A stretch of DNA of 64,000 bases from Phytophthora quininea (taxonomy: Eukaryota; Oomycota; Peronosporomycetes; Peronosporales; Peronosporaceae), in assembly GCA_011947345.1 (NCBI GenBank), contig JAAVTG010000614.1, forward strand, positions 62,001 to 126,000, written 5' to 3'. Within the stretch, counting starts at the first letter, position 1, and every line of letters starts with the position of its first letter. Positions 28,519-56,400 of this stretch are shown here, piece by piece. The notes below the pieces were generated by a model. That model ran no database searches, was not told where the DNA came from, and was given only the letters and a program-made list of their open reading frames with translations. The position numbers were made by a program, and so were the translations under genes.

Positions 28519-28526
28519 CCGGAATG

Positions 28527-28710: not shown

Positions 28711-30834
28711 ACTTATGGTTTTGCTCCCGATTTGTCAGACGCACGTGTCATCGTTGTTCATGGAGCGACTGGCGCTCACAAGTTGTTCTTGGACACTTGG
28801 AAGTGTGATTGCGAGTTTTCCATGACGATGAGTCTCCCATGCCGCCATGCAATCGCCTATCGAATGCAGCATAAAATTGCAGTCCCTGCAATCCCTTGGA
28901 CTCGGATCGACGAGAGGTATGTGCTGTAGTTTGCAGAGTCCGCAAGTCACAATAGATCCCGGATGTTTATGACTAACTCACGAAAATTTCATGACTGTGC
29001 GCTGTTGTAGGTGGACGACTACAGTACGGCCGCTAAAGAAAGTAGCGCAATTTACGTATGAAAACTTTGACGTGGAGTCGTCTGTGAGAAAAAGAAGAAG
29101 TTGGGAACCCACGCAGACCGCTACAGGGAGCCGGTGAGGGCGACACACTTGATTGCGAGCGAAATGACTGATATCGATGATGATACGGAGTTTGAAGAGA
29201 TGCTACAAATTGTGTTAAAGCAGTGGAGAAATGTGCGTCAACGAAAGATCGACGTTGGGGACCTTACCGCCGAATCTACTAGTTCTCCTTCATGTAACAA
29301 CTTTGCTCAAGAAAACAGAGATTCACGACGTGAGCTTGGAGTTAGTTCAAGTGACAATGAGGAATTACAATCCACCCAAGACAGGGAAGATGATGATCAT
29401 AGTGACGAGCCCCGCGGTGCCGATGAAGTCGAATCTACTAGCCCTGTCACGATCCGCCTAAATCCAAAAGCCAAGAAAGTCGGGAGACCGGCAAAGCAGA
29501 AGAAGGAAACTGCAGTTGGTGAGAAATCCGACCGTAAATGGTACGCTGCTGTAGAAAAGGCTCGTAAAGCAGTAGGCGAGGTGACCTTAGACGGTCTACT
29601 CACTGCACTTGACCATTCCGAACCCGGTCTAATTCAGCTGCAGAGACGACTGGCAGGCATCATCGTAAAGTACAGCGAGTCGTACAGCAAGCGCCCCAAG
29701 TACAAACGCATGAAAAATCCTGTTTTAATCTTGGACCCATTTTACATACTTCCGCCAAAGCTTCTGGACGCGTGTGTGAAAGCTCTCCCCTCAGTAACAC
29801 ACTGGAAGAAGCCATTACTTTGGACGACGAAGTGGGCGCACAGTTGACACGCCAAGAATCAATGCAGGACAGTTATACTGATACTGTCATCATTACGGAT
29901 GTCGGGAATTTCTCTAGAAAACAGATCGAGACCTTCAAGCGGATCCAAAATTTAAAGACCGCGGTACAGTTGGGCTTGTGCTTACACAAATGGCTGGTGG
30001 ACGAAGGTCTACCGTCATTACCCGCGGAGTGCCATGATCTGGCGAATCAAGTCGCAGACAAAGTTTTGCGGACCTACCCGTACACGCAACTACCGGGTCT
30101 ACCAGACATACAAGACTTCCAATTCGCCCTGCTGTACAGAGCCACACTACCGACATGGTTCAGCGACGCAGCTATGTGAACGACTAGTCGCTGATTTCCC
30201 AGCATGTCGCTTTGCTGGATTTCAGTCTGCAGTCACGAAACTAAAGAAGACGCGAATGACAGGTATAACTCAGGTGGATGTATCGATGCGGAACTGCATT
30301 CACCAGCAAGTTAAAGAAAGCGGCGTGGACATAGTATTGCTGCCGCTGAATTTTGACAACGCACATTGGTGCTGTGTGGTTGTTCGCGTCGAGTCTAATG
30401 TCTAAACGCATATTCTACTATGACCCACTAAACCAACCAGTCTACCTGCAAGCTGCGAAAAATATTGCTAACGATCTCAAGATCACAGTCCTGAATGATT
30501 ACGACGTGTTGCCCCAAACCAATTCTATCCAATTCAATGCCTTTAGCTGTGGCGTGTATGTGTGCTGGATGTTTATCCGTCAAGTTTTTGCCGGAACTCC
30601 AGTGGACATGAGCGTGAACTCCTTGCCACAACGTCGCTTAGAACTCTTCTATTACTTGCTTACCGGACAACTACTGACATCACCCCTGCAGGAGCGGTGG
30701 CAGATGACGACAAGATTCCATCCCCTCAGAATGACGACGGTAAACGTGGCGAGGAGGGTGCACCATCCACCAAAATCGCGCGGGTTTTTGGTGCTGCCTC
30801 AAAGATAAAACTGGAGAAGTCAACGCCGCAGTAG
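28711..30834 (+). pseudogene. MULE 3' half: SWIM finger and Ulp1 protease, cut at palindrome edge
   Basis: It starts mid-protein at the palindrome boundary (PDLSDARVIVVHGATGAHK), followed by the SWIM zinc finger WKCDC...PCRHAIAYR (about 28800-28865). An acidic linker with an AT-hook-like KKVGRPAKQKK follows (29470-29505), then a Ulp1/C48-type cysteine protease with His (NAHWCCVVV, 30358), Asp (YYDPLN, 30415), Gln (SIQFNAFSCG) and Cys (30550). The transposase domain itself is absent here, whereas the right-arm copy continues into it outside the palindrome. Frame breaks lie near 29790 (C run), 30170 and 30400 and are shared with the right arm. Confidence 0.85.
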
Positions 30835-32059
30835 GTAGTTTGTATGCACTCGGCGCTATCGCGATGAATACATATAGCTTTGATTTTCTTGACCGCATAC
30901 GATAGTTGCCATAAAGCTCCTGTCTAGCAAAGCACAGTCCCTGGCTTGAGCTTCAACTTTCGAATGGGTCATAAAACAGCGAAGAGAAGACATAGTAGTG
31001 AGTACATGCAAATGGGTTGACATGCAACGACGCCTGTGCAGACATGTCGGCCAGGAGCGCGCCTCTAGGCGGACAGAGCAGATTCCGAAGCATAATCTAT
31101 TCATGATAAATCCTGAAGATGATGACGACCTCACGGTGCGTATCTTGATCGTCCTGGACGAATCTTCGCAATCTTTCCTTTACGGTTAATTGCTTTAAGT
31201 TACAAAATGTCGAACAGGATTAATCCTTGATGAAATCCTGATAAAATCCATTATTATAATCCTGACCTGCAACACCTACCAATCTTCAACGGATCTTCTT
31301 AACGCTGATTCGCTAATACACCTGTCTCTGTCACATGGGACTCTTACCATCGTGTTTCGCATATATGAAAACGTTGTGACCCAAGTTTTCATCACAATCG
31401 TGTGTACGTGGCCGTAGATATAGTAAGCTGCTTGTAATCTTTATTTCTGTTTGCACTACTGGTGACGTGACCGCCGTGTTGACCTGCTGCTCGCTACTGC
31501 GCCATCCTGCCCTTGGCCTCGGGGCGGTGCCTGGTGGACAACTTAGATGTCTCTCTAACTACTCGATACGCGCAATGCAACTCACTGTCTGGACGTGTAG
31601 TAGCTACTCAGTTGCTCCCTGACAGAAATCTTTCAAGGGTGTTATGCTCACCGGCCGTGCGGACTAATCTACCGCCGGGGCTGGCTTGGGGCACCCGTTG
31701 TTGGCCACTGCCACACGCAATACCAGGCTACCAGTACTGTGTCGCCCTTCCTCACGGGATAGCTCTACCGTGCTGGTCCTCCTTCTGACGGGTAGCTCGA
31801 TCTTCACGTCAGCCGTCACTAACAGCTTGAATGTATTCTGAAGCGGCACCAAACCGACACCTACTCGCTGCGGCTCAAATCTCTGACTGACCTCTACTTA
31901 CAGACGCATCCCCTGGGGTGTACGACGCTTTGTCCTCCTGCGATCTTTCCGCAGACATCTGCTCCCGGCGCTCGTTACGCCCTCTCAGTTCGGCTGGGCC
32001 GCTGTTGCCTTCGCTGGCATGCCCTGGCCTTCGGCCTTGCCGCTGTTAATGGAGTCTTC
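30835..32059. other. No confident gene; contains dispersed repeat
   Basis: 31200-31400 carries the inverted copy of the repeat seen at 26.4 kb (ACGTTTTCATATATG..., CCATTATTATAATCCTG). Short ORFs at 30998-31189 and 31513-31788 have no recognisable features. Mirrored at about 52205-53429. Confidence 0.4.
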
Positions 32060-32275
32060 ATGCGTGCTGCTGCTGTTATCCTCGTCGCGCTATTGCTGCT
32101 GTCCGTTACCGTAGCATTTTGCTCGAGAGACCTGCAACACCGGCTTTTTCAACTCCTGTCAACGTACAAAAGATGGTTGCATGCGATCATGAACGACAGA
32201 GAATGCTGCAGGGAGTCGTTTTGCGAGGCTGGCTGGGAAGGCCAAAAAGCTTCAGCGAATTCACGTTGTATGTAG
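32060..32275 (+). CDS. Small signal-peptide ORF (candidate secreted peptide), left copy
   Basis: 71 aa starting MRAAAVILVALLLLSVTVAFC, a strong signal peptide with cleavage near residue 21, then SRDLQHRLFQLLSTYKRW and four cysteines overall (residues 21, 49, 50 and 55 or so). No effector motif (the RDLQ after the peptide is not RXLR). The right-arm twin differs at the C-terminus because an A/T run differs by one base (GGCCAAAAAGC here). No family recognised. It could be a chance ORF. Confidence 0.3.
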   Translation: MRAAAVILVALLLLSVTVAFCSRDLQHRLFQLLSTYKRWLHAIMNDRECCRESFCEAGWEGQKASANSRCM

Positions 32276-32394
32276 ACACTAAAAAGAGGAGTCTGTTGCA
32301 ATTGAATTTTCACAAACTTACTCCAAACAGGACCATGCTTTCTGCGCCTAGCATGTTCAGCAAACATGATAGATCTGCGAAAAGTAAATTGATT

Positions 32395-32439
32395 ATTTTC
32401 CGCGCGGAGCAAGCGTAGCGAGCGCAGCAAGCGGAAAAT
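32395..32439. repeat. Short perfect inverted repeat
   Basis: ATTTTCCGC (32395-32403) and GCGGAAAAT (32431-32439) enclose 27 bases of AGCAAGCG/TAGCGAGCG-type sequence. A 9-bp stem, mirrored in the right arm near 51830. Function unknown. Confidence 0.5.
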
Positions 32440-33079
32440 GTGTTTTCCAGAAGAAGGAAGGCATTCCAGAACGAGCTATTTCGGACAAGATCGGTTGCTC
32501 AACGGACAAGACTCAAAAGGCTCTGGGTTTAGGCCAGCCAGCCGGACTCGCGTCTGAGCTGAGCAGAGTTTCCCTGGATTGAGGGTCGTAGTGGTCAAGT
32601 CAAGCAGCACATCGGTTCGCGCAAGACACCCTGCGACCCAGCGTCGCCACACAAGTTCTGCATACTACGGTCACCCATCGTTACTGACAGCATTCACGTC
32701 GACCTCGCATTCTTCCACCAGATACCGAACGACCTCTATGTACCCCCTCGAGCAGCGCTCATCAATGCAGTCGAACCATCCTTACTGACAGCATTCACGT
32801 CTGCCTTATATCCTTCCACCAGATACCGAACGACCCCCAGGTGCCCCTGTTTGGCAGATCTCATCAATGCAGTCCAACCGTCCTTAGTGACAGCATTCAC
32901 GTCTGCCTTGCCTTCTTTCACCAGCCACTGAACGACCTCCACGTGCCCTTCTTTAGCAGCCTCCATCAATGCAGTGTTACTGACAGCATTCACGTCCGCA
33001 TCACCGTCCTGCAGCAGACGTCGGACGGCCCCGCGATCGCCCCGTTTAGCAGCCAACAGCACCGCCTCACATGGGTTCC

Positions 33080-33322
33080 TGTCACAGTCCCATTAGAACT
33101 GTGGTGTTGAAACGGACAAAAGTAGCAACAGAAACCACAAAGCGGGGGTTAAAGCAAATACACTTCGTTATTTTCTCCAACAGTCACAAGATCTCGTTTA
33201 CATCTTGTCGTCGAGCAGCTTTCTGTTGCTCTCCAACTCGCTTCCTCAACGCCAAAGTGACTGTAAAGGCCTTCGACACTGGATAAGTTCTATCTGGAGT
33301 GGAGTCGACCATATTTACAACA
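33080..33322 (+). repeat. Gypsy 5' LTR
   Basis: TG...CA boundaries. Diagnostic bases versus the 3' LTR are two T after the G run (about 33149), T at 33222, C at 33253, T at 33262 and T at 33280. Confidence 0.95.
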
Positions 33323-33351
33323 TAGTAGAGCTTTACGTGTGAGACAAGAAG

Positions 33352-34710
33352 ATGAATGATCGTGAAGGAGTCGACATCGACGACTTCAATGGAGCTACAA
33401 CGTCCAGACTCAATTCGAGCGAACTGGACGAAGTCCGAGATCTACTCACAAAGTTGCCCCGGCTGGAAGAAACCCTCCATGCCTTACAAAGGGACCAAAC
33501 AAATTTAACGGAGTCGGTGGCGGCGTTTGCCACGCGAGTTGAGCGGCGTCACCACGAGAGTACGGCACAAGCAGGACGAACTCATCAACTTCTACAAGAA
33601 GTAATTCAGCAAATGCAGCAATTTTCGGACAGAAGTTATGCCACGATGGAGAGTCATTTGAGACAGTTAAACGAAATGCGCGGAGAAATAGAGCAGATGA
33701 AATCTGATGCTCAAGCTCAGCGTGAAGAAGTAGCTGATCTGCGGGCAACCATTACGGACATGTCATCTATGGCTGGTCCAAATGCAGTGGATAATTCCGA
33801 GCTGTACCCTGAGTGGGATGTGCTGGGCAAAATGCCAGAAGGAACCACATCGTACTCAGCAAACGATCTCGAGGATCGGATAGCCAAGACTTTCAAGCAA
33901 AAGAGACGCCAATATTTGGCGGGGAAGACAATGAAGACACTGATGTGTATGTGCTCAATATGATCTCGTGGTATGGAGCTTTCCAGTTATTTTTCGACAA
34001 CCACAAGTTGATTTCCGCGTCGGCCAGCTAATGATGAGTCACACAAAAGGCAAGGCAAAATCATGGCTACTGCAGGAATACAGTGGCGAATGGCGCTGGA
34101 GCTCAATTGCCAAGAAAATGAGACAACGATTTCTCACCAAGTCTCGCGAGGAAGATCGGGTGGCACGATTGTTTGACTGCACCCAAAGATATCGCTCGCT
34201 GGACGAGTACATTGAAGAGTTTTTGCGGCTGGCCCGAACGGAGGAAGTCTCCGTCAAGTTTAAGCTGATTCTCTTTAAGAAAGGCTTCCAATCGCAGGAT
34301 TTACAAAATTTTCTCCAGACGAAACAATATACATCGCTGGAAGACCTCGTCGATGCAGCTCGAACAATGAACCCACGTGCAGCGCTGAAGAGTCAAATAA
34401 GCGTGCAGCGAAATCCGCAAGCGCTGGCTCGGCCGATGGAGGAAAATCCCGCAAGGGGAGTCAGAACAGGGGCGAAAAGAAAACCGACACGCAGAAGTGC
34501 ACGCCAATGCACTGCACAGAACAAGGTCACACACCCGATAAGTGTTGGATGTTACATCCAGAACTGCAACCGAAGTGGTTAAAGAGCAAGAAAAACAATG
34601 CAGCTACAACAACATCAGCGACATCCAATAGCGTTGAAATGGATCAACTGCTCAAAATGATGTCTTCTCTCAAATCTGACATGGATAAGTTGAAAAGTGA
34701 TTTAAACTAA
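33352..34710 (+). pseudogene. Gypsy gag
   Basis: The ATG at 33352 lies 30 bp after the 5' LTR. The N-terminal half is a coiled coil (ELDEVRDLLTKLPRLEETL, EVADLRATITDM). After a frame change near 33910 comes the capsid-type Retrotrans_gag region (KGKAKSWLLQEYSGEW, MRQRFLTKSREEDRV, YIEEFLRLAR, 34040-34260) and a zinc-knuckle-like CTPMHCTEQGHTPDKC (about 34497-34545) in another frame, stopping at 34708-34710. At least three frames are used, so it is non-functional as read. Confidence 0.8.
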
Positions 34711-34749
34711 GCGGTTCTGGGGATGGCATCCCAGGACCTGACACTGCCA

Positions 34750-37700
34750 CCTCCAATGCAGAGTCGCAAGTGTTTGACCCAGGTAAGGAAGCGAACCTAG
34801 CCTACTTCCGAAAGAACGCGGCTGGCACACAGCTGGGGAAACGGTATTTGATAAAAATGTCGGCTGCACACGCGGTGACACTCACACGCAGGGTCGAACA
34901 TTCTTCGATGAGGGAGCAGACTTTTGCGGTGTGTCGGAGGAATTTATCCGACGAAACAAATGGGAGCATCATGTCATCGATTCGGGGTTCTTTGCAGTAA
35001 CCTACGCTAACGGCAAGACGGAACAAGTAGCAAATAGAACCATCACGCTGAAAATTTACGTGGATGACATGGAGTCTTTCACGTTCGATTTCAATATTTG
35101 CTTTATCCCAAACGGTTGTGATTTAATGCTAGGAGTTCCATGGAAGCGGACAGCGCTACCAATCATTGACTGGGAAACCGATCAAGTTTACAGCAAGCAG
35201 CAGTACATTGAAGAGGTTGAGCGAGCAAAGAAACTTCAGGAGAAACAGAAACAAAACCCCGATATTCACGCTGAACGGCAACAAACAAAAGAGTCCCCGC
35301 TTGCTATCCCAAAACTACCGACAGAACGTAGTGCATACTACAGCGCAAAGTGGGGATTCACGAAGCACATCTCGCTCAAGACGGCAAAAAGATATTCCGG
35401 AAAAAGATGTGGAATTCGCAGCTGTCATACCCCAGGCAACCATCAACGCAATATATGTTGAGGTCCTAAAAGAAGATGGATACTCCGGTGCAGTAGCAGC
35501 GGCAGCAATTGCAACAACGAAACCCACAGATAAACAACAACGACAACTAACTACAGACTTGAAAAGTTTTGCCGATAATCCTGGGTACCCTTTGCTGAAG
35601 GAATTCTCAGATATTTTTCGGACAGAATTACCAATCGGGTCACCAGCTCATGGTGAGCATGAAATGGAGATCAAAGAGGGCACTGGGGCAGTTTATCGAC
35701 AGCAATGGAGGCTGAGTCCGGACCAAGAACGAGCACTTCGAGAGTGGGTGAAAGCTATGTTACGAGCTGGGTTAATTCGACCGAGTAAATCACCACATGC
35801 CGCGCCAACGTTTTGCATTAAAAACCTGTGGGGTGGAGAGTAGTTCACGATTACAGAGCAATGAATGAGCGAACCGTCCGCCAATCCTCACCAATGCCAA
35901 GGAAAGACTCGATTATTGATCGCATGAGTCTGGCATTCTGGTTTAGTTGTTTCGACTTACTTTCCGGATATTATCAACTACACATGCGGGAAAAAGACAT
36001 CCCTTTTACGGCGTTCCAGACTCCCGATGGCTTATATGAATACATTGCCATACCAATGGGCCTCAGCAACGCGCCAGCAACTTTCAACCGTATCGTACAA
36101 GGAATCTTCGCGGATCTGCGCGACTTCACCGCAACGTATTTTGACGACATTTACATCTTCACAAAAACACACGACATGGAGGCACACCTTGCAGCAGTTC
36201 GAAAGGTATTCGAACGATGCCGGGAGAAAAAACTGTATCTAAAGCTAGCCAAGTCTACAGTGTGTGCGCCCGAAATTCCGTGCCTCGGAGATTTCGTGGG
36301 GAGAGATGGAGTTAGAATTGATCCTGACAAAGTTCGAGTCATCCAAGAATGGCCTCGACCAACCTCCGTGCGAGCATTGCAGTCATTCCTCGGAACTACA
36401 GTGTATGTGCAGCAATTCTGCAAAAATCACTCTGAGATTAGTGCGCCGTTGTTCGAACTGGTGAAAACAAAGAGGAAGTCAACATTGGAATGGAGTAAAG
36501 AACAGATTCTGGCGTTTGAAAACCTGAAAATTGCGATGAGTAAGACACCAGTCCTAGCTCTCCCAAATTTCACGAAGCCATTTCACATGAGAACGGATGC
36601 GTCGCGATACGCGTTTGGTGGGGTGTTATTCCAGCTGAACGACAAAGATCTGGAACAACCTATAGCGTTCTGTGGGCGAAAGATGGAAGCTGCTGAATTA
36701 AACTACCCGACCCATGAGCAGGAGATGCTCGCTATTGTGCATTGCCTGCAAATATGGAGAATTTATCTACTTGATGGTGGAGGTCTTGTCGAAACAGATC
36801 ACCACTCATTGGAACGGGTGCTGAAGCAGAAAACTATAAATCGGCGACTGTGCCGATGGTACGCTTTACTTGCAGAGTTTACCTTGCGATTTAAGTACAT
36901 ACCTGGGCCGACAAATAGCGTAGCAGACGCAATGAGCAGAAGACCAGACTTCGAGATTGACTTCTTACAACAGAAACAGCGTCAAATGAATGCAGCCAGA
37001 CGACTGCAAGAGAAGTCGCTACTCGAGATGATTCGACTGGCACAGCAAACGGCGGGTTTAGCAAGTCAGTCTTGCCAAAACCGACGAAAGGCAACGCGAA
37101 ATTCACATTTGTGGAGGAAGAAAATCTTATTCGTTGGACCTGTGGGGAGGAATCGCGTATTTTTATTCCACAAGAGGCGATTGAGTTACAACATACTATC
37201 TTATGGGAACTCCATGACATTGCCATTGCTGGACACCCGGGGTCGAGAAGACAATTGATGCTGTCCAACAACGATTCTACTGGAAACGAATGCAGCAGAA
37301 AATTCAGCATTATATTGCAACGTGCGAATCGTGCCAACGAAATAAGCATAGGACCGGAAAATCACCAGGTCTATTACATCCACTCGAAATCCCTTCGAGC
37401 CGATGGTCATCAATCGGCATGGATTTTATTACTGGCCTGCCGGAAACAAAAGTGGATATAACACGATTTTGGCCATTGCTGACAGGCTGACTAAACGTGC
37501 ACATTTTATCGAGACAGTAGCTACAATCTCAGCCGAAGAACTTGCGAAATTGTTCGTGAAAGAGTATGTTCGCCATCACGGCTTACCATCGGATATCGTC
37601 TCCGATAGAGACTCGAAGTTCACGTCGAAGTTCTGGACATCGTGTGCAAAACTTTTAGGCACTAAACTCAAGTTAGCTACTGCTCATCACCAACGAACCG

Positions 37701-38601
37701 ACGGGCAAGTCGAAAGAATCAATGGAATTCTTGCAGGCTACCTCCGGCACTACGTTAGCGGGTTTCAAGATGATTGGGACCAATACTTAGCGCTAGCGGA
37801 ATTTGCTTACAACAGTCGATACCAGTCAAGTATCAAAATGAGTCCATTTGTGGCAGACTTGGGATATTCGCCCAAACTTCCAACGGATTTAGCACTTCCG
37901 AACACGAACTGTGAGACAGCGAGCAAGTTTGTGGCGCACATGGAAAAAATATTGCGTTCTATACGAGCTCAACTTCGGACAAGTGCTGAAAAAATGAAGC
38001 TTTACTACGACAGAGGGAGACGCGATCAGAAATTCAAGATTGGCGATATGGTTCTTATCTCTACTAAAGATTTCAACCCGAAGACAATTGGCGCCGTGCA
38101 ACGAAAGTTGGCGTCGAAATGGATTGGGCCGTATGAAGTGCTGAAAATTCTACATGATGGAGCAAGTTATGAGCTTAATCTACCGCACGAATTGCAGATT
38201 CATCGGTTTTCCACACCATGGCGCTGAAGAAGTTCGTCAAGGACACAACGGGCTGTGTGCGAGACTCAACAATACCGACAATACGACTTAAAGATGGATC
38301 CGAAGGCCATCTCATCGAGGCAATACTAGATCATCGAATCAAAAGAGATGGCTCAGAGCAATACAAGTGCAAGTGGGTGGGGAAATCAGACGATATCACC
38401 TGGGAACCAACAGCAAACTTACTCTCAGTGCCCGGCTTGATCCGTGAATATCATCGACGAGCGAATAACCTACCAACGAGAAGGTCAACCAGACTACAAG
38501 AACAAAATCAGCAGCATTATCTGCACGGATATAAAATTCGCAGTTGGACGTTCAGCCCGGAGGACCTCGTTCTGAAGGAGGTCGTGTCACAGTCCCATTA
38601 G
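34750..38601 (+). pseudogene. Gypsy pol: protease, RT, RNase H, integrase, chromodomain
   Basis: The protease region (34895-35160) reads FFDEGADFCGVSEEF, with DEGA where aspartic proteases normally have D-S/T-GA. RT follows (35828-36300) with FSCFDLLSGYYQ and the catalytic TYFDDIYIF, then RNase H (RTDASRYAFGGVLF, YPTHEQEMLAI, VETDHHSLE, 36590-36810). The integrase zinc region (HDIAIAGHPG, CESCQRNKH) and D,D,E core residues (GMDFITGLP about 37420, IVSDRDSKF about 37590, RTDGQVERIN about 37700) come next. The C-terminal chromodomain (YKCKWVGKSDDITWEP, 38365-38410) marks a chromovirus-type element. Frame changes are near 34900, 35400, 35835, 37070, 37260-37400, 37460 and 38215. The RT-RNase H block alone is open for 476 codons. 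Confidence 0.85.
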
Positions 38602-38828
38602 AACTGTGGTGTTGAAACGGACAAAAGTAGCAACAGAAACCACAAAGCGGGGGTTTAAAGCAAATACACTTCGTTATTTTCTCCAACAGTCACAAGATCT
38701 CGTTTACATCTTGTCGTCGAGCAGCTTCCTGTTGCTCTCCAACTCGCTTCCTCAACGCTAAAGTGACCGTAAAGGCCTTCGACACCGGATAAGTTCTATC
38801 TGGAGTGGAGTCGACCATATTTACAACA
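38585..38828 (+). repeat. Gypsy 3' LTR
   Basis: 244 bp. A polypurine-like GAAGGAGGTCG precedes it and overlaps the end of the chromodomain ORF. It differs from the 5' LTR at five sites. Confidence 0.95.
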
Positions 38829-38936
38829 GTTCCCCATCTCCATTTTCTTTGAAGGCGAAGGGGGGAAGACCTCGGATCTTGACTGATTTACGTGACAAAA
38901 AAAGAAAACGACATCTTCCACAAGGTTTTTTCTCAA

Positions 38937-39833
38937 TCAATTATTACGACCGCGGTAGGCGGTTGAGCACTCGGTAAACGTTTCGCTGGTGAACGGCTGG
39001 AGGTCTGCGTCTGGGGTTGTGAGCAGGCTGTCAATCGTTTCCTGGAAGAACGATATGACGGCCGGGTTACAAAACTCGCGACGACTTTCTCGGAAGGCGA
39101 AGACGCCGTAGCGGATGTAGTTGGCGATACTTTGCGCGTCTTGGACCCTCTCTGTATCATCGTTTCCAACCACAAAAGCCATGTGAGTGTCAAGTCGCTG
39201 CAATGCCCACTCTGTCAACCTCCGGCGAATGCTTTCGCGCAGAGTGATGCCATTCGGATAGTGGATAGGATGTACGAGTACCTCACAGTTTTCCATTCTC
39301 AGAGAGCTGATCGCGTTCTTGGCATGGTATCCTTCTTGTCCTTCCACAATCTTGAACACGCGCTCATATCGAGTGGATGGCAGTCCGTGCGTCTCTCGAA
39401 CAAAGTCGGAGGCCGAGGCATCTAACAGCGCGGCCACGGGGCGCTTACGTCTCCTCTCGTGGTTTTCAATCGAGAGGCCATGGCTTAAATGGAGACGATT
39501 GTGCATCTCGAGCAGGCGTTCGGTTTGTAGATCGGCACGCTGGACAAAGTAGCGCGCGTCGTTCCTTGTTTGATCAGCCCGAGCGTTTGCTTGGTCAGCG
39601 CGAGCGTTTGCCAGGGCAGCTTCGTTTCTTGCCAGTGCAGCATCGTTCCTCGCTTCGGCGGCGTCATTCATAGCCTGGTCTGCTCGAGCGTTTGCCTGTG
39701 CAGCGTCATTCCTTGACTGCCTTCGCTCTCTTTCCGCATGTCGGCGCGCCCTACGTTCGTTAGCTGCTCGAGCATTCGCTGCCACAAGGCGCTCCTCCAA
39801 GCGAGCGATTGTTATGCGTGGGTCCTCAGCCAT
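38937..39833 (-). CDS. Coiled-coil protein with compact C-terminal domain, left copy (298 aa)
   Basis: MAEDPRITIARLEERL opens a long Ala/Arg/Asp/Asn heptad coil to about residue 100 (repeated ARADQANARADQ, EARNDAALARNE). A globular part follows: FVRETHGLPSTRYERVFKI, GYHAKNAISSLRMENCEVLV, LRESIRRRLTEWALQRLDTH. The frame is fully open in both arms, with only a G/D difference near the C-terminus (YRGRNN here, YRDRNN in the right copy). The closest resemblance I can think of is the C-terminal module that follows Bro/KilA-N domains in large-DNA-virus proteins, held at low confidence. The coil-plus-domain plan also resembles the broken gene at 12.8-13.9 kb. It is the best-preserved ORF in the palindrome. 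Confidence 0.55.
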   Translation of the reverse strand: MAEDPRITIARLEERLVAANARAANERRARRHAERERRQSRNDAAQANARADQAMNDAAEARNDAALARNEAALANARADQANARADQTRNDARYFVQRADLQTERLLEMHNRLHLSHGLSIENHERRRKRPVAALLDASASDFVRETHGLPSTRYERVFKIVEGQEGYHAKNAISSLRMENCEVLVHPIHYPNGITLRESIRRRLTEWALQRLDTHMAFVVGNDDTERVQDAQSIANYIRYGVFAFRESRREFCNPAVISFFQETIDSLLTTPDADLQPFTSETFTECSTAYRGRNN

Positions 39834-40209
39834 CGTTCCGTCCAGTTTTCAAACTGCTTAAAGCGGGAGACGATACCGAGGTTTAAAGGTTAAACTACTG
39901 AACAGACTAATCCTGATCGAAGTCTTCCTTGATCATGATCTCCGTTTTGATAAATATCGTCATTTTTCGCATTTCTTGATGTGAGGTAAATCTCTTCATA
40001 GACTGAAGTCAGTCTGAAAAAACGTTCCGAGTGAACCAACAGTCCGTTTTCCGTTTTGATAAAAATCGTCAAATATTTCGCATTTCTTGATTTGGGGAAA
40101 TCTTTTCATGATCAGTGTCACGATGGAGATCTCATAGACCTGAATAACTCCCGGCATGACCGCTAGACCTGATAATACTTTGACGAGGCAGATTACTGCT
40201 AGACCTGTC
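39834..40209. other. Non-coding, with an internal repeat
   Basis: TCCGTTTTGATAAA-ATCGTCA...TTTCGCATTTCTTGAT occurs twice (about 39941-39980 and 40049-40090), a diverged direct repeat of about 110 bp. No gene. Mirrored at 49559-49934. Confidence 0.5.
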
Positions 40210-40298
40210 CATTCCGCAAGCTGCTTGTCCGCGCGTCCAACGTACTAGAACCAGCGTCAGAGTCGCTCGCAGATATTCACCGGCGGACGAGTAACACC
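40210..40298 (+). repeat. 89-bp direct repeat flanking piggyBac, copy 1 (left arm)
   Basis: CATTCCGCAAGCTGCTTG to GACGAGTAACACC, identical to 44301-44389 in the same orientation. Mirrored in the right arm at 45381-45469 and 49470-49558. Confidence 0.9.
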
Positions 40299-40365
40299 CG
40301 CGCAATCCTCTCAACCTGATTTAGTTTTGAAAAAATGCTGGTCAGTAACCCCTGTAATCCCGGAT

Positions 40366-44275: not shown

Positions 44276-44300
44276 CGGGAGCACAGGGTTAAACATGTTT

Positions 44301-44864: not shown

Positions 44865-44910
44865 TTGCGAAGCAAAAACAGATTGGTGTAGCCACCGGAA
44901 CGGTCCTGTT
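44865..44910. other. 46-bp unpaired centre of the palindrome
   Basis: TTGCGAAGCAAAAACAGATT... to ...GGAACGGTCCTGTT. The only sequence at the axis that is not mirrored. Confidence 0.9.
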
Positions 44911-45645
44911 GCAACACGGACTGTTTCTGTCCAACAGGTGGCTGATTACGCATCTAGAGACAGTCTAGACCTATCCTCCACTAATGAAAGATACGCCACA
45001 TGGCGTTACAAAATGATTACGGGGGCATAGAAGGGACATAGAGACGTTATACTAAGAAACAGACCTATTACACACACAGGCGACTAACAAAAGATACTTC
45101 AACATGCACCGTTTTTTGGCCAACATGTGCTGCTGCATTATTTTTACCCGTCGATACTTTTACCAACCAACCAAAAAATAATTACTGCTCACACAATGAC
45201 GAACGGTGGGGAAGGGCAGTTGAAACGACCCTATCAGCCAATGAAAACATCGCACCATTTTCAAAATTCAGAGTGACATACAGCGCTATCGCGGAAATCA
45301 AAACTACTTTTGTAGGGTAAAGGCGGGCGCTGCCCGGTAACGTTACACACATTTCAGGATGACCGCGGTCATTGTAGTTAGGTGTTACTCGTCCGCCGGT
45401 GAATATCTGCGAGCGACTCTGACGCTGGTTCTAGTACGTTGGACGCGCGGACAAGCAGCTTGCGGAATGAAACATGTTTAACCCTGTGCTCCCGTACTCT
45501 GTATTATACAGAATACTCAGTATGACAGGATCAAAGGTTTTCCGTTTATTAAGAGCTTTGTATAGAGAGGGAATCGGGTAAAATTCGCATAGAAGGACTG
45601 TGAGGGGAGGCTATGCACACATTTTCCGTGATACAAAAAGCACAG

Positions 45646-45652
45646 TATAAAT
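45646..45652 (+). promoter_or_regulatory. TATA-like box of the piggyBac transposase
   Basis: TATAAAT, 49-55 bp before the ATG at 45701, with a CCTCACACTG initiator-like site about 20 bp downstream. Mirrored for the left copy at about 44118-44124. Confidence 0.45.
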
Positions 45653-45700
45653 GAGTGGGAGGTAGCTAGCCTCACACTGTGAGAAATTGCGCCGATCGCA

Positions 45701-48601
45701 ATGAACAGCGGGGAGAAGGCGTTCAAATGTCTGTGGAAGGAGCTCCTAGCCGCTGGTTGGAAGGCTCGCAAGCCTTCTGGCCTCAGTTCAGATTGGGTGT
45801 ACGTGAAGCCAGGCGTGAAAGGGCGTCTAGACCCTCCAAGCAAGGACAAGATTATTTTGTTGGTATGTCGATTTATATTATACTTTGCTTGCGCTCTAGT
45901 GCTAATATTTCTGCTGTAGGTGTACCATCTCTTCTGGATTATGCCAGAGCATCCAACATGCTGACTTTAGGTGCTGCAGCCCCGATTTCATCTCCTCCAA
46001 GCGGTCTGTGTACGAAGGGCCGAAGACACGAGCTTACCGCGGCAGCAGAGTCTTCGAAGCCTGCTCCGACTGCTGGAGGAAGTCAACAACATCAAGCTCA
46101 GCTCTCTGAAGAAGGACGACTTGTTGAGCGTGGGGATCGACGCCCCCGACAGTCCTGCAGACCTCTCGTGAGCTCACGGCCGTCGTCATCGCCGATTGCT
46201 TCGCCGTCATCGGCTGAATCGACAACTCCGCTGCCTACAGAATTGCCAGCTCCACCGGTCTCTACTCCGGCTTCTACAGAGTTGCCAGCTCCGCTGCCTA
46301 CAGAATTGCCAGCTCCCCAAGACGCCGTTATCGCGGGGAGCGGATCGAAGACAACGAAGAAACCAAAGGCGAAGACAATGACGGACTTATCGACTTGTTT
46401 GGCGGGGATCCTTCTTGGATGCGCTGCGTCGCGAGGTCCTTTTCGACGCTGCCTCTGCTGATGATGTCAACAAGTGTTTGGCTTCTTCGAATGACCGAGA
46501 TTCGTCGGGCAGTGAGAGTGAGGACGTCATGAACAGCAGCATCGACGATATTTCGGGCGATGAGCGAGAGGTCTATTACACTGACTCGTCAAGTGAGAGT
46601 GAAGAAGAGGCGGAGCCGACATTCGAGACAACGGATAGTGAACTCCGGGCACTCGCAACAAATGGTTGGGTAGTGTACGACGCCGATCGTTGCGGTGAGT
46701 CTGTATTATACAGAATAGAGCATGTGACCGAATATCTAATTCTGTATGTGTTGTGTAGGTGATCTCCAGCTAGGAGCTGCATCAGATTACTACGACGGAC
46801 CGTGGGGCCCGACCCTTTCGGCACTCGCGTTCGCAGACTCTCCGTTGGGATTGTTCTTTACTTCTTGCCGAAGAAGTTGTGGATGCGCATCGCAGAAGAA
46901 TCAAACCTGTATCGGCGTCGTGAGATGCTGCTTCAGAAGCAAGCAAAGGACCCGAGAACGACTGTCCCAACGCTGGATGAGATTGAGGCGGAGTTTCAAC
47001 GTTTCAAGGCCATCAGGACACACGAAGTCGTGAATGTGATTGGACTTCTGCTGGCTCGCGCTGTTTCTCCCATCCGTGACGGGCTTGCAAGACATTGGTC
47101 GACGTCAGAAGATGGCGCTATTCCAAGAGGCTCTTTCTCGAGATACATGAAGCGGGCTCGCTTTGAAGCCATCGTTCGATTCCTGCATTTTAACGACAAC
47201 GAGGCTGACGGCGCAGCGTCGGACAGGGCCTGGAAGATCCGGCCAGTCCTTCAGGCGGTGGAGAAAACATTTCGCCGCGGATATCGCCTCGGTAAATTCA
47301 TCTCGCTTGATGAAGGCATGATTCCTAACAGAAGCCGCTTCAACCCCATGAAGGTGTACATGAAAGACAAACCTACGAAATGGGGGACCAAGTTTTATAT
47401 GACTTGCTGTGCGGAGACCGCATATTGCGCTCGGTGAGAGGGTCTATTCTGTATTCTTTGTAATTGATCATGACGGAATAAGCTGACGGTATTGTGCAAT
47501 TCTGTATTCACCTGAATAGTGTGGAGATCTACTGCGGCAAGTCTAAAGGAAAAAGAAGAAGGAGACGAACGTGGGTCCGAAGGCAGTCGTCCGAAACATA
47601 ACCAAGGTCCTGCGGGGTCAGCCGCGCAAGCGTCTCATTATCACCGACAACTACTACTCCTCCATTCAATTGTCAATCAAGCTGCTCTCCATGGGGCTGT
47701 ACCACGTTGGAACAGTCCAGACAAACCGTCTTGGTTGGTGCTCGGCCATCCAGTTCACACAAAAGTCAAGAACGAAGAAGACACCTAGAGGAATGTACCG
47801 CATAGCACAGTCAACAGCTTATCCCGAGTTGGTGGCGCTGTCCTGGATGGACTCAAGACCCGTCAACATGATTGCCACTGGCTGCAGCACGCGTCAAACG
47901 ACAGTAAACCGCAGAGAGAAGGACGGAAGCATTACCGTCACGCCGTGCCCGCAGTTAGTTGTGGATTACGCTCGTGGCATGGGTGGCGTGGACATCCATG
48001 ATCAGATTCGTCTCCAGCGCTATTCGATTCAAAAGTGCATCACTTTCAAGAAATACTACAAGCAGCTCTTTTTGGTATCGTGGACATGTCCCTTGTGAAC
48101 GGGTTCATTGTTCATAATATCGCAAGAAAACAGCGTTCAGAGAAGCCAACAACACACGCCGCCTACGTCCGCCGCCTACACAAAGAACTGTTGGCGCTTC
48201 GAGAGGATCATTTTGCTAGACATCCAGTTGCTGAAGACCTTGTCACTACCCCTGTTGGTCGCGGCGACCATACTCTGGTCAACACTAGCAGCCTCTACGA
48301 ATCCAAGAAGGGTTCGAAGAGGTACCAACATCTCTGCAAGGTGTGCTCAGCGCATACTAGTGGCAAGTCCTTTGAAACTAGCTACTTCTGTCCAACATGC
48401 AGTGAGGCGTTCGAAGGTCGCGTACCATTGTGTCCAAAGATCCGTCGGATTGAAGAAGGCAATGTCCTGACGTGCACCCAGATATGGCATGAGGTTTGGA
48501 ACGACGGGAGGAACATTCCACCGCATTACAACGAGATTCGCTTCAGGAAGCCAAAACGGAAACGAGTACAGAGAGAAGATGAGGAGGAAAAAGAAGGATA
48601 A
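45701..48601 (+). pseudogene. piggyBac transposase, right copy with an extra frame break
   Basis: Same gene as 41167-44069. Introns fit as GT-AG at 45863-45919 (57 nt), 46695-46758 (64 nt, containing the CTGTATTATACAGAATA palindrome) and 47434-47519 (86 nt). Compared with the left copy it has lost one T in GGATTGTTCTTTAC (about 46858), which breaks the frame inside the core, and one C near 45833. Two codons in the catalytic region differ (FLVSWTC here, FWVSWTW in the left copy). Shared breaks: the A run 47550-47554 is one short, and there is a frame change near 46400. The left copy is therefore the closer to intact. Confidence 0.8.
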
Positions 48602-48659
48602 CCACTGCATAAATACACGTTTGAATGTTTGAACTCTGTTGTCATTGCTCAACACGTTC

Positions 48660-49159
48660 GGCGCCGCTTCTGAATAGCTCACCTTCATTTTGTCGTAAAT
48701 GAAGCCGCGCCGCTCGGCCTCGTCTTGCGACAGCATCGCGCCCGTGTATTCGTACACGAACTCGTTGGCAGCGATGCTGGCCACAGCAAACATGCCCCAG
48801 CCATGAATATCTGAGAAACTCATACCGAGTCTCTTGTGGGTAGCGCGGCTAACATTCGTGTTACCGCACGCTAACCGTTCGTCCACAGCGGTAGACGAGT
48901 TGTTGAGAACAGCGACAGCGGCTGCGCTAGCACCGCATCTCGTGCATACGTCAGGGTCGCATTCTCGAAGCGCCGCGAAGCATGGACACTCGCTTACACG
49001 AGCTACCTTGGTGCCCTTCAAACTTGCAATCCGCAACAGTAAATTGTTAGCAGCAATTTGACCAACAATGTACGCAGAAGGAAGAATTGCCCAGTTCCTT
49101 CCACCTCTTCTTCCAAGTATGGAACTGGGCAATTTCTTCCTCTGCGCGCAGCAGCACAC
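48660..49159 (-). pseudogene. Captured E(z)-type CXC-SET fragment, right copy
   Basis: Mirror of 40609-41110 with the same CXC cysteines, GWGMF and EYTGAMLSQDEAERRG motifs and the same splice-donor-like end. Two amino-acid differences from the left copy. Tail-to-tail with the right transposase. Confidence 0.85.
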
Positions 49160-49934
49160 GCTCTCCCGTCCACTCAGCGCCAGGACATCAAAGCAAACGA
49201 TTTCAGCAGGATTTCAACAAATGAAGGTTTTGCCATCTTACGAGATATCTACAACCCAATCATAGTACGCGAACTCACCACCTGCAAGTCAAAATGTGGC
49301 ATCTTTGTTTGAAAAACAGAATTATTTATGCGCATTTTTGTATAGAAGAGGCTAACGCAATGCTTTTGTACGTTTTCATTATTCTGTATAATACAGAATA
49401 ATATCCGGGATTACAGGGGTTACTGACCAGCATTTTTTCAAAACTAAATCAGGTTGAGAGGATTGCGCGGGTGTTACTCGTCCGCCGGTGAATATCTGCG
49501 AGCGACTCTGACGCTGGTTCTAGTACGTTGGACGCGCGGACAAGCAGCTTGCGGAATGGACAGGTCTAGCAGTAATCTGCCTCGTCAAAGTATTATCAGG
49601 TCTAGCGGTCATGCCGGGAGTTATTCAGGTCTATGAGATCTCCATCGTGACACTGATCATGAAAAGATTTCCCCAAATCAAGAAATGCGAAATATTTGAC
49701 GATTTTTATCAAAACGGAAAACGGACTGTTGGTTCACTCGGAACGTTTTTTCAGACTGACTTCAGTCTATGAAGAGATTTACCTCACATCAAGAAATGCG
49801 AAAAATGACGATATTTATCAAAACGGAGATCATGATCAAGGAAGACTTCGATCAGGATTAGTCTGTTCAGTAGTTTAACCTTTAAACCTCGGTATCGTCT
49901 CCCGCTTTAAGCAGTTTGAAAACTGGACGGAACG

Positions 49935-50831
49935 ATGGCTGAGGACCCACGCATAACAATCGCTCGCTTGGAGGAGCGCCTTGTGGCAGCGAATGCTCGA
50001 GCAGCTAACGAACGTAGGGCGCGCCGACATGCGGAAAGAGAGCGAAGGCAGTCAAGGAATGACGCTGCACAGGCAAACGCTCGAGCAGACCAGGCTATGA
50101 ATGACGCCGCCGAAGCGAGGAACGATGCTGCACTGGCAAGAAACGAAGCTGCCCTGGCAAACGCTCGCGCTGACCAAGCAAACGCTCGGGCTGATCAAAC
50201 AAGGAACGACGCGCGCTACTTTGTCCAGCGTGCCGATCTACAAACCGAACGCCTGCTCGAGATGCACAATCGTCTCCATTTAAGCCATGGCCTCTCGATT
50301 GAAAACCACGAGAGGAGACGTAAGCGCCCCGTGGCCGCGCTGTTAGATGCCTCGGCCTCCGACTTTGTTCGAGAGACGCACGGGCTGCCATCCACTCGAT
50401 ATGAGCGCGTGTTCAAGATTGTGGAAGGACAAGAAGGATACCATGCCAAGAATGCGATCAGCTCTCTGAGAATGGAAAACTGTGAGGTACTCGTACATCC
50501 TATCCACTATCCGAATGGCATCACTCTGCGCGAAAGCATTCGCCGGAGGTTGACAGAGTGGGCATTGCAGCGACTTGACACTCACATGGCTTTTGTGGTT
50601 GGAAACGATGATACAGAGAGGGTCCAAGACGCGCAAAGTATCGCCAACTACATCCGCTACGGCGTCTTCGCCTTCCGAGAAAGTCGTCGCGAGTTTTGTA
50701 ACCCGGCCGTCATATCGTTCTTCCAGGAAACGATTGACAGCCTGCTCACAACCCCAGACGCAGACCTCCAGCCGTTCACCAGCGAAACGTTTACCGAGTG
50801 CTCAACCGCCTACCGCGATCGTAATAATTGA
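49935..50831 (+). CDS. Coiled-coil protein with compact C-terminal domain, right copy (298 aa)
   Basis: Same as 38937-39833; fully open frame. The ATG at 49935 follows an AT-rich leader. Persistence of an open frame in both arms while neighbouring genes are broken suggests it may be, or recently was, functional. Confidence 0.55.
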   Translation: MAEDPRITIARLEERLVAANARAANERRARRHAERERRQSRNDAAQANARADQAMNDAAEARNDAALARNEAALANARADQANARADQTRNDARYFVQRADLQTERLLEMHNRLHLSHGLSIENHERRRKRPVAALLDASASDFVRETHGLPSTRYERVFKIVEGQEGYHAKNAISSLRMENCEVLVHPIHYPNGITLRESIRRRLTEWALQRLDTHMAFVVGNDDTERVQDAQSIANYIRYGVFAFRESRREFCNPAVISFFQETIDSLLTTPDADLQPFTSETFTECSTAYRDRNN

Positions 50832-50927
50832 TTGAGAAAAACCTTGTGGAAGATGTCGTTTTCTTTTTTTGTCACGTAAATCAGTCAAGATCCGAGGTCT
50901 TCCCTCCCCCCTTCGCCTTCAAAGAAA

Positions 50928-51594
50928 ATGGAGATGGGGAACTGTTGTAAATATGGTCGACTCCACTCCAGATAGAACTTATCCAGTGTCGAAGGCCTTT
51001 ACGGTCACTTTAGCGTTGAGGAAGCGAGTTGGAGAGCAACAGAAAGCTGCTCGACGACAAGATGTAAACGAGATCTTGTGACTGTTGGAGAAAATAACGA
51101 AGTGTATTTGCTTTAACCCCCGCTTTGTGGTTTCTGTTGCTACTTTTGTCCGTTTCAACACCACAGTTCTAATGGGACTGTGACAGGAACCCATGTGAGG
51201 CGGTGCTGTTGGCTGCTAAACGGGGCGATCGCGGGGCCGTCCGACGTCTGCTGCAGGACGGTGATGCGGACGTGAATGCTGTCAGTAACACTGCATTGAT
51301 GGAGGCTGCTAAAGAAGGGCACGTGGAGGTCGTTCAGTGGCTGGTGAAAGAAGGCAAGGCAGACGTGAATGCTGTCACTAAGGACGGTTGGACTGCATTG
51401 ATGAGATCTGCCAAACAGGGGCACCTGGGGGTCGTTCGGTATCTGGTGGAAGGATATAAGGCAGACGTGAATGCTGTCAGTAAGGATGGTTCGACTGCAT
51501 TGATGAGCGCTGCTCGAGGGGGTACATAGAGGTCGTTCGGTATCTGGTGGAAGAATGCGAGGTCGACGTGAATGCTGTCAGTAACGATGGGTGA
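50928..51594 (+). pseudogene. Ankyrin-repeat gene interrupted by a solo LTR, right copy
   Basis: ATG at 50928; codons 1-5 (MEMGN) end at 50942. The solo LTR (50943-51185) and duplicated GGAAC follow, then the frame resumes at 51191 (PCEAVLLAAKRGD). About four repeats end with NAVSNDG and TGA at 51592-51594, with one missing G in the run 51518-51522. Removing the LTR plus one target copy restores the junction of codons 5 and 6. Confidence 0.8.
50943..51185 (-). repeat. Solo Gypsy LTR
   Basis: 243 bp, flanked by GGAAC on both sides (50938-50942, 51186-51190), at the position where the left arm has the whole element. Diagnostic sites read as 5'-LTR type, 5' type, 3' type, 3' type, 5' type along the LTR, as expected for a recombinant between the two LTRs. 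Confidence 0.95.
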
Positions 51595-51988
51595 CCGTAG
51601 TATGCAGAACTTGTGTGGCGACGCTGGGTCGCAGGGTGTCTTGCGCGAACCGATGTGCTGCTTGACTTGACCACTACGACCCTCAATCCAGGGAAACTCT
51701 GCTCAGCTCAGACGCGAGTCCGGCTGGCTGGCCTAAACCCAGAGCCTTTTGAGTCTTGTCCGTTGAGCAACCGATCTTGTCCGAAATAGCTCGTCCTGGA
51801 ATGCCTTCCTTCTTCTGGAAAACACATTTTCCGCTTGCTGCGTTCGCTACGCTTGCTCCGCGCGGAAAATAATCAATTTACTTTTCGCAGATCTATCATG
51901 TTTGCTGAACATGCTAGGCGCAGAAAGCATGGTCCTGTTTGGAGTAAGTTTGTGAAAATTCAATTGCAACAGACTCCTCTTTTTAGTG

Positions 51989-52204
51989 TCTACATACAAC
52001 GTGAATTCGCTGAAGCTTTTGGCCTTCCCAGCCAGCCTCGCAAAACGACTCCCTGCAGCATTCTCTGTCGTTCATGATCGCATGCAACCATCTTTTGTAC
52101 GTTGACAGGAGTTGAAAAAGCCGGTGTTGCAGGTCTCTCGAGCAAAATGCTACGGTAACGGACAGCAGCAATAGCGCGACGAGGATAACAGCAGCAGCAC
52201 GCAT
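51989..52204 (-). CDS. Small signal-peptide ORF, right copy
   Basis: Mirror of 32060-32275 with the same signal peptide. A four-base T run (five in the left arm) changes the last dozen residues. Confidence 0.3.
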
Positions 52205-53429
52205 GAAGACTCCATTAACAGCGGCAAGGCCGAAGGCCAGGGCATGCCAGCGAAGGCAACAGCGGCCCAGCCGAACTGAGAGGGCGTAACGAGCGCCGGG
52301 AGCAGATGTCTGCGGAAAGATCGCAGGAGGACAAAGCGTCGTACACCCCAGGGGATGCGTCTGTAAGTAGAGGTCAGTCAGAGATTTGAGCCGCAGCGAG
52401 TAGGTGTCGGTTTGGTGCCGCTTCAGAATACATTCAAGCTGTTAGTGACGGCTGACGTGAAGATCGAGCTACCCGTCAGAAGGAGGACCAGCACGGTAGA
52501 GCTATCCCGTGAGGAAGGGCGACACAGTACTGGTAGCCTGGTATTGCGTGTGGCAGTGGCCAACAACGGGTGCCCCAAGCCAGCCCCGGCGGTAGATTAG
52601 TCCGCACGGCCGGTGAGCATAACACCCTTGAAAGATTTCTGTCAGGGAGCAACTGAGTAGCTACTACACGTCCAGACAGTGAGTTGCATTGCGCGTATCG
52701 AGTAGTTAGAGAGACATCTAAGTTGTCCACCAGGCACCGCCCCGAGGCCAAGGGCAGGATGGCGCAGTAGCGAGCAGCAGGTCAACACGGCGGTCACGTC
52801 ACCAGTAGTGCAAACAGAAATAAAGATTACAAGCAGCTTACTATATCTACGGCCACGTACACACGATTGTGATGAAAACTTGGGTCACAACGTTTTCATA
52901 TATGCGAAACACGATGGTAAGAGTCCCATGTGACAGAGACAGGTGTATTAGCGAATCAGCGTTAAGAAGATCCGTTGAAGATTGGTAGGTGTTGCAGGTC
53001 AGGATTATAATAATGGATTTTATCAGGATTTCATCAAGGATTAATCCTGTTCGACATTTTGTAACTTAAAGCAATTAACCGTAAAGGAAAGATTGCGAAG
53101 ATTCGTCCAGGACGATCAAGATACGCACCGTGAGGTCGTCATCATCTTCAGGATTTATCATGAATAGATTATGCTTCGGAATCTGCTCTGTCCGCCTAGA
53201 GGCGCGCTCCTGGCCGACATGTCTGCACAGGCGTCGTTGCATGTCAACCCATTTGCATGTACTCACTACTATGTCTTCTCTTCGCTGTTTTATGACCCAT
53301 TCGAAAGTTGAAGCTCAAGCCAGGGACTGTGCTTTGCTAGACAGGAGCTTTATGGCAACTATCGTATGCGGTCAAGAAAATCAAAGCTATATGTATTCAT
53401 CGCGATAGCGCCGAGTGCATACAAACTAC
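52205..53429. other. No confident gene; mirror of 30835-32059
   Basis: Contains the dispersed repeat related to the 26.4-kb tandem units at about 52870-53065. No supported ORF. Confidence 0.4.
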
Positions 53430-56400
53430 CTACTGCGGCGTTGACTTCTCCAGTTTTATCTTTGAGGCAGCACCAAAAACCCGCGCGATTTTGGTGGATG
53501 GTGCACCCTCCTCGCCACGTTTACCGTCGTCATTCTGAGGGGATGGAATCTTGTCGTCATCTGCCACCGCTCCTGCAGGGGTGATGTCAGTAGTTGTCCG
53601 GTAAGCAAGTAATAGAAGAGTTCTAAGCGACGTTGTGGCAAGGAGTTCACGCTCATGTCCACTGGAGTTCCGGCAAAAACTTGACGGATAAACATCCAGC
53701 ACACATACACGCCACAGCTAAAGGCATTGAATTGGATAGAATTGGTTTGGGGCAACACGTCGTAATCATTCAGGACTGTGATCTTGAGATCGTTAGCAAT
53801 ATTTTTCGCAGCTTGCAGGTAGACTGGTTGGTTTAGTGGGTCATAGTAGAATATGCGTTTAGACATTAGACTCGACGCGAACAACCACACAGCACCAATG
53901 TGCGTTGTCAAAATTCAGCGGCAGCAATACTATGTCCACGCCGCTTTCTTTAACTTGCTGGTGAATGCAGTTCCGCATCGATACATCCACCTGAGTTATA
54001 CCTGTCATTCGCGTCTTCTTTAGTTTCGTGACTGCAGACTGAAATCCAGCAAAGCGACATGCTGGGAAATCAGCGACTAGTCGTTCACATAGCTGCGTCG
54101 CTGAACCATGTCGGTAGTGTGGCTCTGTACAGCAGGGCGAATTGGAAGTCTTGTATGTCTGGTAGACCCGGTAGTTGCGTGTACGGGTAGGTCCGCAAAA
54201 CTTTGTCTGCGACTTGATTCGCCAGATCATGGCACTCCGCGGGTAATGACGGTAGACCTTCGTCCACCAGCCATTTGTGTAAGCACAAGCCCAACTGTAC
54301 CGCGGTCTTTAAATTTTGGATCCGCTTGAAGGTCTCGATCTGTTTTCTAGAGAAATTCCCGACATCCGTAATGATGACAGTATCAGTATAACTGTCCTGC
54401 ATTGATTCTTGGCGTGTCAACTGTGCGCCCACTTCGTCGTCCAAAGTAATGGCTTCTTCCAGTGTGTTACTGAGGGGAGAGCTTTCACACACGCGTCCAG
54501 AAGCTTTGGCGGAAGTATGTAAAATGGGTCCAAGATTAAAACAGGATTTTTCATGCGTTTGTACTTGGGGCGCTTGCTGTACGACTCGCTGTACTTTACG
54601 ATGATGCCTGCCAGTCGTCTCTGCAGCTGAATTAGACCGGGTTCGGAATGGTCAAGTGCAGTGAGTAGACCGTCTAAGGTCACCTCGCCTACTGCTTTAC
54701 GAGCCTTTTCTACAGCAGCGTACCATTTACGGTCGGATTTCTCACCAACTGCAGTTTCCTTCTTCTGCTTTGCCGGTCTCCCGACTTTCTTGGCTTTTGG
54801 ATTTAGGCGGATCGTGACAGGGCTAGTAGATTCGACTTCATCGGCACCGCGGGGCTCGTCACTATGATCATCATCTTCCCTGTCTTGGGTGGATTGTAAT
54901 TCCTCATTGTCACTTGAACTAACTCCAAGCTCACGTCGTGAATCTCTGTTTTCTTGAGCAAAGTTGTTACATGAAGGAGAACTAGTAGATTCGGCGGTAA
55001 GGTCCCCAACGTCGATCTTTCGTTGACGCACATTTCTCCACTGCTTTAACACAATTTGTAGCATCTCTTCAAACTCCGTATCATCATCGATATCAGTCAT
55101 TTCGCTCGCAATCAAGTGTGTCGCCCTCACCGGCTCCCTGTAGCGGTCTGCGTGGGTTCCCAACTTCTTCTTTTTCTCACAGACGACTCCACGTCAAAGT
55201 TTTCATACGTAAATTGCGCTACTTTCTTTAGCGGCCGTACTGTAGTCGTCCACCTACAACAGCGCACAGTCATGAAATTTTCGTGAGTTAGTCATAAACA
55301 TCCGGGATCTATTGTGACTTGCGGACTCTGCAAACTACAGCACATACCTCTCGTCGATCCGAGTCCAAGGGATTGCAGGGCCTGCAATTTTATGCTGCAT
55401 TCGATAGGCGATTGCATGGCGGCATGGGAGACTCATCGTCATGGAAAACTCGCAATCACACTTCCAAGTGCCCAAGAACAACTTGTGAGCGCCAGTCGCT
55501 CCGTGAACAACGATGACACGTGCGTCTGACAAATCGGGAGCAAAACCATAAGTTGTACACTTTTTAGCGCGACTGTGTACTGATGTCCAATCTGTTCCGC
55601 GACGTAATGAGTCGCGAAGGGCAGAACGTTCGACATATCCTCGTCGAAACTGCTGTTGACAAACTGTCCAATCCGTGAAACCCGATATTGATATTCGTTC
55701 TGCATTCGTCTGTCGTAGGCAACTATGGCCTTCACACACTGTGCCATACTCAAAGATCCGTCTACGCTCTCTTTTAGTTTGCCAAAAAAACTATCTATAC
55801 GGTTGTTAGTATGATTCTTGAAGTGCAGGAGCTTGGCCCGCAAATATAGCACCCAGCGATCTTTGCTCGCATCCCAATTTCTTTCAAAGTAGTCGAAGAA
55901 GCCTGCCATCTCCATTCTGTCGCACATTCCACGCAGAGATTGATGTGCATCGTTATACACCTTCTCCGAATCGGTGTACACCATCTTGTGTATTGCAGCG
56001 TCGATTTGACTAGCATCATCGCTCGAAAGCTTTCCAAATTCTGGCTTGGATCGTTTTTCCTTCAGGTACTTGATTGTGTGAAAGTGATAGATTAAAATTC
56101 GTGCCTGTGGGAAGTTAGACTGGAGCACACATATCTCGTTCAAGTCCTTATCAACAATAATTACTCGCAACATGTTGATGCGTGTAGGGTGAGAGCCAGT
56201 AAAGTGACCAATGGCTTTCTCCATGTGCCAGTCCCCGTTAGCCTCGATCAGAGACTGCTGCACCACTGCACCTTCACCGAACTCGTTCATATTCATGAAT
56301 TTAAGGAGCTGGTAGTTGTAGCTGCACGATAGAATCGGGAAATAATCAGGCATTATTAATCTTAAACATATCTTCAAAAAAATCTACACAAAAGAACAAC

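Follow-up and report, generated by a model that had tools for sequence, protein, structure and literature searches.

The window analysed here, a stretch of 64,000 bp corresponding to positions 62001-126000 of the 805,255-bp contig C606, contains two long arms of nearly identical sequence that face one another across a 46-bp centre. The left arm (28711-44864, minus strand; 16.2 kb), which we assign as the copy, holds a full-length Gypsy element, and the right arm (44911-55553, plus strand; 10.6 kb), which we assign as the original, runs unbroken into the rest of a MULE transposon and the right flank. Self-BLAST of the window mirrors 28711-33322 onto 55553-50943 (4,612 bp, 99.8% identity) and, with the spacer included, 38585-51188 onto 51185-38582 across the centre (12.6 kb, 99.3% identity); alignment of the arms places the ends of their homology at 28711 and 55553. 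Together these analyses bear out the original prediction of a giant, near-perfect palindrome with a 46-bp centre, and ~10 kb of such near-identity means that chance is not a possible source. The centre itself (44865-44910) is a non-palindromic spacer that occurs once in the assembly searched (87.2 Mb in 993 contigs) with up to three mismatches allowed, and it folds no more stably than shuffled sequences do (z = -0.66). The innermost match between the arms is 5 bp long (GTTGC/GCAAC) and, being part of the palindrome by definition, offers no independent test; one mismatch lies beyond it and would pair as G-T in a folded strand. A search for tRNA genes in the window, run with bacterial settings, returned none. 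Protein comparisons place the host in or close to Phytophthora: one search gave three proteins, all of that genus, at 34-43% identity, and among 60 proteins in another the named match with the highest score was from P. ramorum (69%).

Transposons make up most of the recognised contents of the arms. Nearest the axis, a PiggyBac-like element with a DDE_Tnp_1_7 domain occupies 40346-44295 of the left arm (minus strand), with its mirror copy at 45475-49422 of the right arm (plus strand); its limits were set by comparison with a relative on contig C290, from which it differs at 46 of 3,884 aligned bases. In each arm this element is flanked by an identical 89-bp direct repeat (40210-40298 and 44301-44389 in the left arm, mirrored in the right), one copy beginning within a few bases of where the C290 match ends and the other lying ~47 bp away. 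Farther out, a 102-bp unit is repeated three times in tandem at 32675-32975 (mirror 51290-51590), and by eye this unit reads like ankyrin-type repeats. A segment of ~660 bp at 52188-52848, with its left-arm mirror, has relatives at 73-75% identity on C50, C548, C508 and other contigs.

At the outer edge of the right arm lies a 4.6-kb MULE transposon (52984-57621, minus strand), complete over its whole length and extending past the palindrome edge (55553). Its ends were set by matches to copies on C464 (95%) and C850 (94%), which stop there, and they carry imperfect 28-bp terminal inverted repeats (52990-53017 and 57588-57615) bounded by a perfect 9-bp target duplication (52975-52983 and 57622-57630). 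These terminal features and a MULE-type transposase place the element among the MULEs, the domain support consisting of a ZSWIM RNase-H-like match above its cut-off and a MULE domain match of 21.6 bits, below the cut-off of 27.6. The transposase reading frame is oriented toward the axis. In the left arm, the corresponding element (28711-31280, plus strand) is truncated: it keeps the inner terminal repeat (31247-31274) and the inner target duplication (31281-31289) and is without the outer 2.1 kb. Because the right edge at 55553 falls in the middle of the MULE, no joining took place at that position. Moreover, a MULE that is whole, with its target duplication, on the right and cut on the left points to the right arm as the donor and to the left arm as a truncated, inverted copy; judged by sequence arrangement, the right arm is the original.

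The full-length Gypsy LTR retrotransposon of the left arm (33080-38828, plus strand) has LTRs at 33080-33322 and 38585-38828 and is bounded at each end by the 5-bp target duplication GTTCC; its open reading frames of at least 150 aa form several separate pieces. At the mirror position of the right arm is a solo LTR (50943-51185, minus strand), a single LTR flanked on both sides by the same GTTCC that bounds the full insertion. The expectation that the Gypsy element had inserted in one arm only was therefore not borne out, and a late insertion into one arm is ruled out because the other arm also bears this insertion, reduced to a solo LTR. The two LTRs of the left arm differ by four substitutions and one indel in 243 bp (1.6% substitutions), and the solo LTR is a mosaic of them, showing the 5', 5', 3', 3' and 5' LTR states in order at these five differences, of which the 5' state at the last site (38786) may be a later mutation. 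This mosaic and the shared GTTCC show that the right arm lost the Gypsy interior by LTR-LTR recombination after the duplication. The insertion itself predates the duplication, since the LTR pair has diverged by 1.6%, against 0.14% for the arms, and both arms carry the same target duplication. Elsewhere, other LTRs of this Gypsy family have no partner 5.5 kb away among the matches listed.

On the left of the palindrome, a 191-bp flank (28520-28710) that occurs once in the assembly meets the truncated copy; the joint at 28710/28711 shows no strict microhomology, as the adjacent base differs, and AGTG is common to both sides at a 2-base offset. On the right, the first 2.1 kb past 57600 has no second match in the assembly, and the remainder matches repeats only. 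Within the arms, three pieces (44700-45080, 38830-40340 and 51150-53000) have near-identical copies in the two arms only, one of these searches also giving relatives at 85% identity or less. Searches with longer pieces, whose listed matches did not include the query's own place, were not counted as evidence that further copies are absent. Outside the left flank, a segment at 26390-26972, and an inverted one within the arm at 31303-31404, are relatives of a tandem repeat spaced at ~1,260 bp (on C581, for example). A 1.5-kb element with inverted ends (26995-28519) adjoins the first of these segments, and two other copies of this element, on C59 and C282, have that tandem repeat on both sides.

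Over 10.6 kb the aligned arms differ by 15 substitutions (0.14%) and eight small indels, with one large difference, a 5,506-bp gap, set apart from the latter. The raw alignment holds 26 substitutions and 11 indels; excluded from the count are two substitutions at the outer joint (28708 and 28710) and nine substitutions and two indels in the spacer. Single bases in homopolymer runs account for six of the eight small indels and could be sequencing errors. There is a 4-bp gap at 38862, and a 6-bp indel in the original prediction does not stand as a single event, the difference there consisting of a 7-bp gap and a nearby 1-bp gap of opposite sign (44434 and 44449). Transitions, counted by eye, constitute 11 of the 15 substitutions (P = 0.002 against an expectation of 1/3). 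Third copies serving as outgroups (two of the MULE and one of the PiggyBac-like element) allowed 9 of the 23 differences to be polarised: four substitutions are new in the left arm, and three substitutions and two single-base indels are new in the right, where both indels sit in homopolymer runs and the PiggyBac assignments depend on the one outgroup copy. Changes thus fall on both arms, in agreement with the predicted separate histories, and a single read folded back on itself becomes an unlikely source of the structure. The differences are also unevenly spread, as judged by the sum of squared gaps (all 23, P = 0.002; the 15 substitutions, P = 0.005), by the longest run free of any difference (3.4 kb; P = 0.005) and by the longest run free of substitutions (3.5 kb; P = 0.04). 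For eight of the 23, the nearest arm end is no more than 450 bp away (P = 0.001, corrected for six distances chosen post hoc). Such clustering could come from arm-to-arm gene conversion or from allelic haplotype blocks, and some later gene conversion between the arms is possible.

We favor, with reasonable though far from full confidence, a real interstitial inverted duplication that arose in one fold-back event and was later edited by solo-LTR formation. First, a double-strand break would have occurred just left of the present centre, and its right-hand end would have been resected. The resulting 3' single strand could then fold back, leaving a 46-nt loop, and prime synthesis on its own strand, so that the region, then holding the full Gypsy element, the PiggyBac-like element and part of the MULE, would be copied outwards. 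The new end would halt inside the MULE, and end joining that used no obvious homology would connect it to the left side of the break at 28710/28711. Afterwards, the right arm lost the Gypsy interior by LTR-LTR recombination and both arms gained changes. The order of events read from the nested elements is the MULE, PiggyBac and Gypsy insertions, then the duplication, then loss of the Gypsy interior from the right arm. With one event, fold-back followed by end joining explains the direction of copying, why the spacer is single-copy and why the far end is truncated. Counting against it are the lack of strict microhomology at the outer joint and the much larger spacers of human cases, and the divergence of the arms could be allelic. 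Replication-based template switching would give the same anatomy. The locus looks like the scar of a known type of DNA-break repair and not like a new kind of genetic element.

Fold-back inverted duplications described in humans (PMC3907307) and yeast (PMC7467729, PMC10622511) offer the closest parallels. In these, as at the locus described here, an inverted copy adjoins its original across a short, single-copy spacer at the axis, one arm being original and the other a truncated copy that ends at an unrelated joint. In wild-type yeast, two of three events used inverted repeats of 5 bp separated by 35 bp (PMC10622511), and the median loop in yeast with intact MRE11 and SAE2 was 36 nt (PMC7467729), values closer to the 46 nt seen here than are the far larger spacers of 766-70,466 bp given, along with the mechanism, for human cases (PMC3907307). 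This agreement in loop and stem is a fit and not a proof. In contrast to the human and yeast examples, the present duplication is interstitial and short (10-16 kb), its arms differ and its host is an oomycete.

The palindrome is probably a genuine structure, but two other accounts of it deserve discussion, each of which we regard as unlikely. In the first, two separate real copies or alleles were falsely joined at the centre during assembly, for example through a fold-back chimeric read. Palindromic chimeras are known in long reads after whole-genome amplification (PMC6218980), and the predominance of single homopolymer bases among the small indels (6 of 8) is like that of long-read errors. 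However, the palindrome, at 90.7-117.6 kb of C606, lies deep within the contig and not at its end, and the 5.5-kb difference, the mosaic make-up of the solo LTR and the presence of changes on both arms are not what a single folded molecule would give. False joining of alleles, for its part, requires a second false join at 28711, and the confinement of near-identical copies of the three arm pieces to the two arms, together with the single-copy left flank, also speaks against an artefact. A sequencing adapter at the axis was also considered: the centre is unlike the PacBio adapter (P = 0.69), and comparison with the ONT hairpin, one of the two tests, gave a nominal P of 0.04, which would fit an artefact; we did not retain an adapter as the explanation.

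In the second account, to which we give similarly little weight, the homologous chromosome supplied the template for the left arm or was fused to it; the differences between the arms would then represent heterozygosity, and the palindrome might be of very recent origin. Substitutions at 0.14%, combined with a full element opposite a solo LTR, resemble what two alleles might display, and the clustered differences could be haplotype blocks. Against this, an additional step is needed, and two flank searches that recovered their own places found no second near-identical copy of the flanks, an argument that is weak if the assembly is haploid-collapsed.

We consider it quite improbable that the palindrome is old and that gene conversion between its arms has kept them homogeneous, in the manner of mammalian sex-chromosome palindromes and Caenorhabditis inverted repeats. 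Long, near-identical arms and possible gene conversion are shared with those systems, and a C. elegans inverted repeat with 2.2-kb arms and a 126-bp spacer is said to be ~100 million years old (PMC1803023). The clustering of differences, the 3.4-kb run without any and the excess near the arm ends (at distances chosen post hoc) are features that conversion could produce. By contrast with the sex-chromosome and Caenorhabditis cases, the recognised contents here are mostly transposons, the spacer is very short and there is no sign of long maintenance; the arms have just 23 differences, and conversion would be expected to erase the contrast between full element and solo LTR as well. Transposition as the cause of the palindrome is rejected, as 28711 lies inside an element and none of the element ends found lies at the axis.

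The original prediction held such arms to be unstable. A 46-bp centre may nevertheless be tolerable in a eukaryote (compare PMC7999016), and nothing observed here requires the palindrome to have a function. The notion that it is a natural trigger of transposon silencing, an oomycete counterpart of maize Mu killer, strikes us as highly improbable. By this analogy, read-through from the MULE at the right edge would cross both arms to give a long hairpin RNA, which in turn could yield small RNAs directed at all three transposon families (MULE, PiggyBac and Gypsy). Like Mu killer (PMC3440606), the locus is an inverted duplication in which a Mutator-family transposase gene is truncated, and inverted repeats in the oomycete group are strong sources of small RNAs (PMC3804510). 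Yet the inversion point of Mu killer is inside the transposon, whereas the axis here is ~8 kb from the MULE, and the idea is weakened by the need for read-through exceeding 8 kb. Furthermore, the silencing antisense RNAs of Mu killer were found not to be long enough to form a large hairpin, nor to derive from read-through of flanking genes (PMC3440606).

More broadly, no paper on large Phytophthora palindromes was among the literature entries listed (20 of 511 and 12 of 6,097), judged from the listings. If confirmed, this locus would represent an inverted duplication of natural origin in an oomycete, with a very short axis and with nested transposons that record the order of events, and it would suggest that fold-back repair operates in this lineage. 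It would also suggest that a near-palindrome of 10 kb built around only 46 bp of centre can last long enough to gain differences and to lose the interior of one arm's retrotransposon, and would provide a place to ask whether such palindromes seed transposon-silencing RNAs.

Toward the left end of the window, 3085-8215 resembles a segment of C790 (92%) and 8216-12846 a segment of C281 (96%), in a search whose listed matches did not include the query's own place; these matches abut at 8215/8216, which may be the junction of two dispersed segments. Toward the right end, 61116-63617 is a high-copy repeat of ~2.5 kb with several sites on each of C455, C815, C233, C610 and other contigs.
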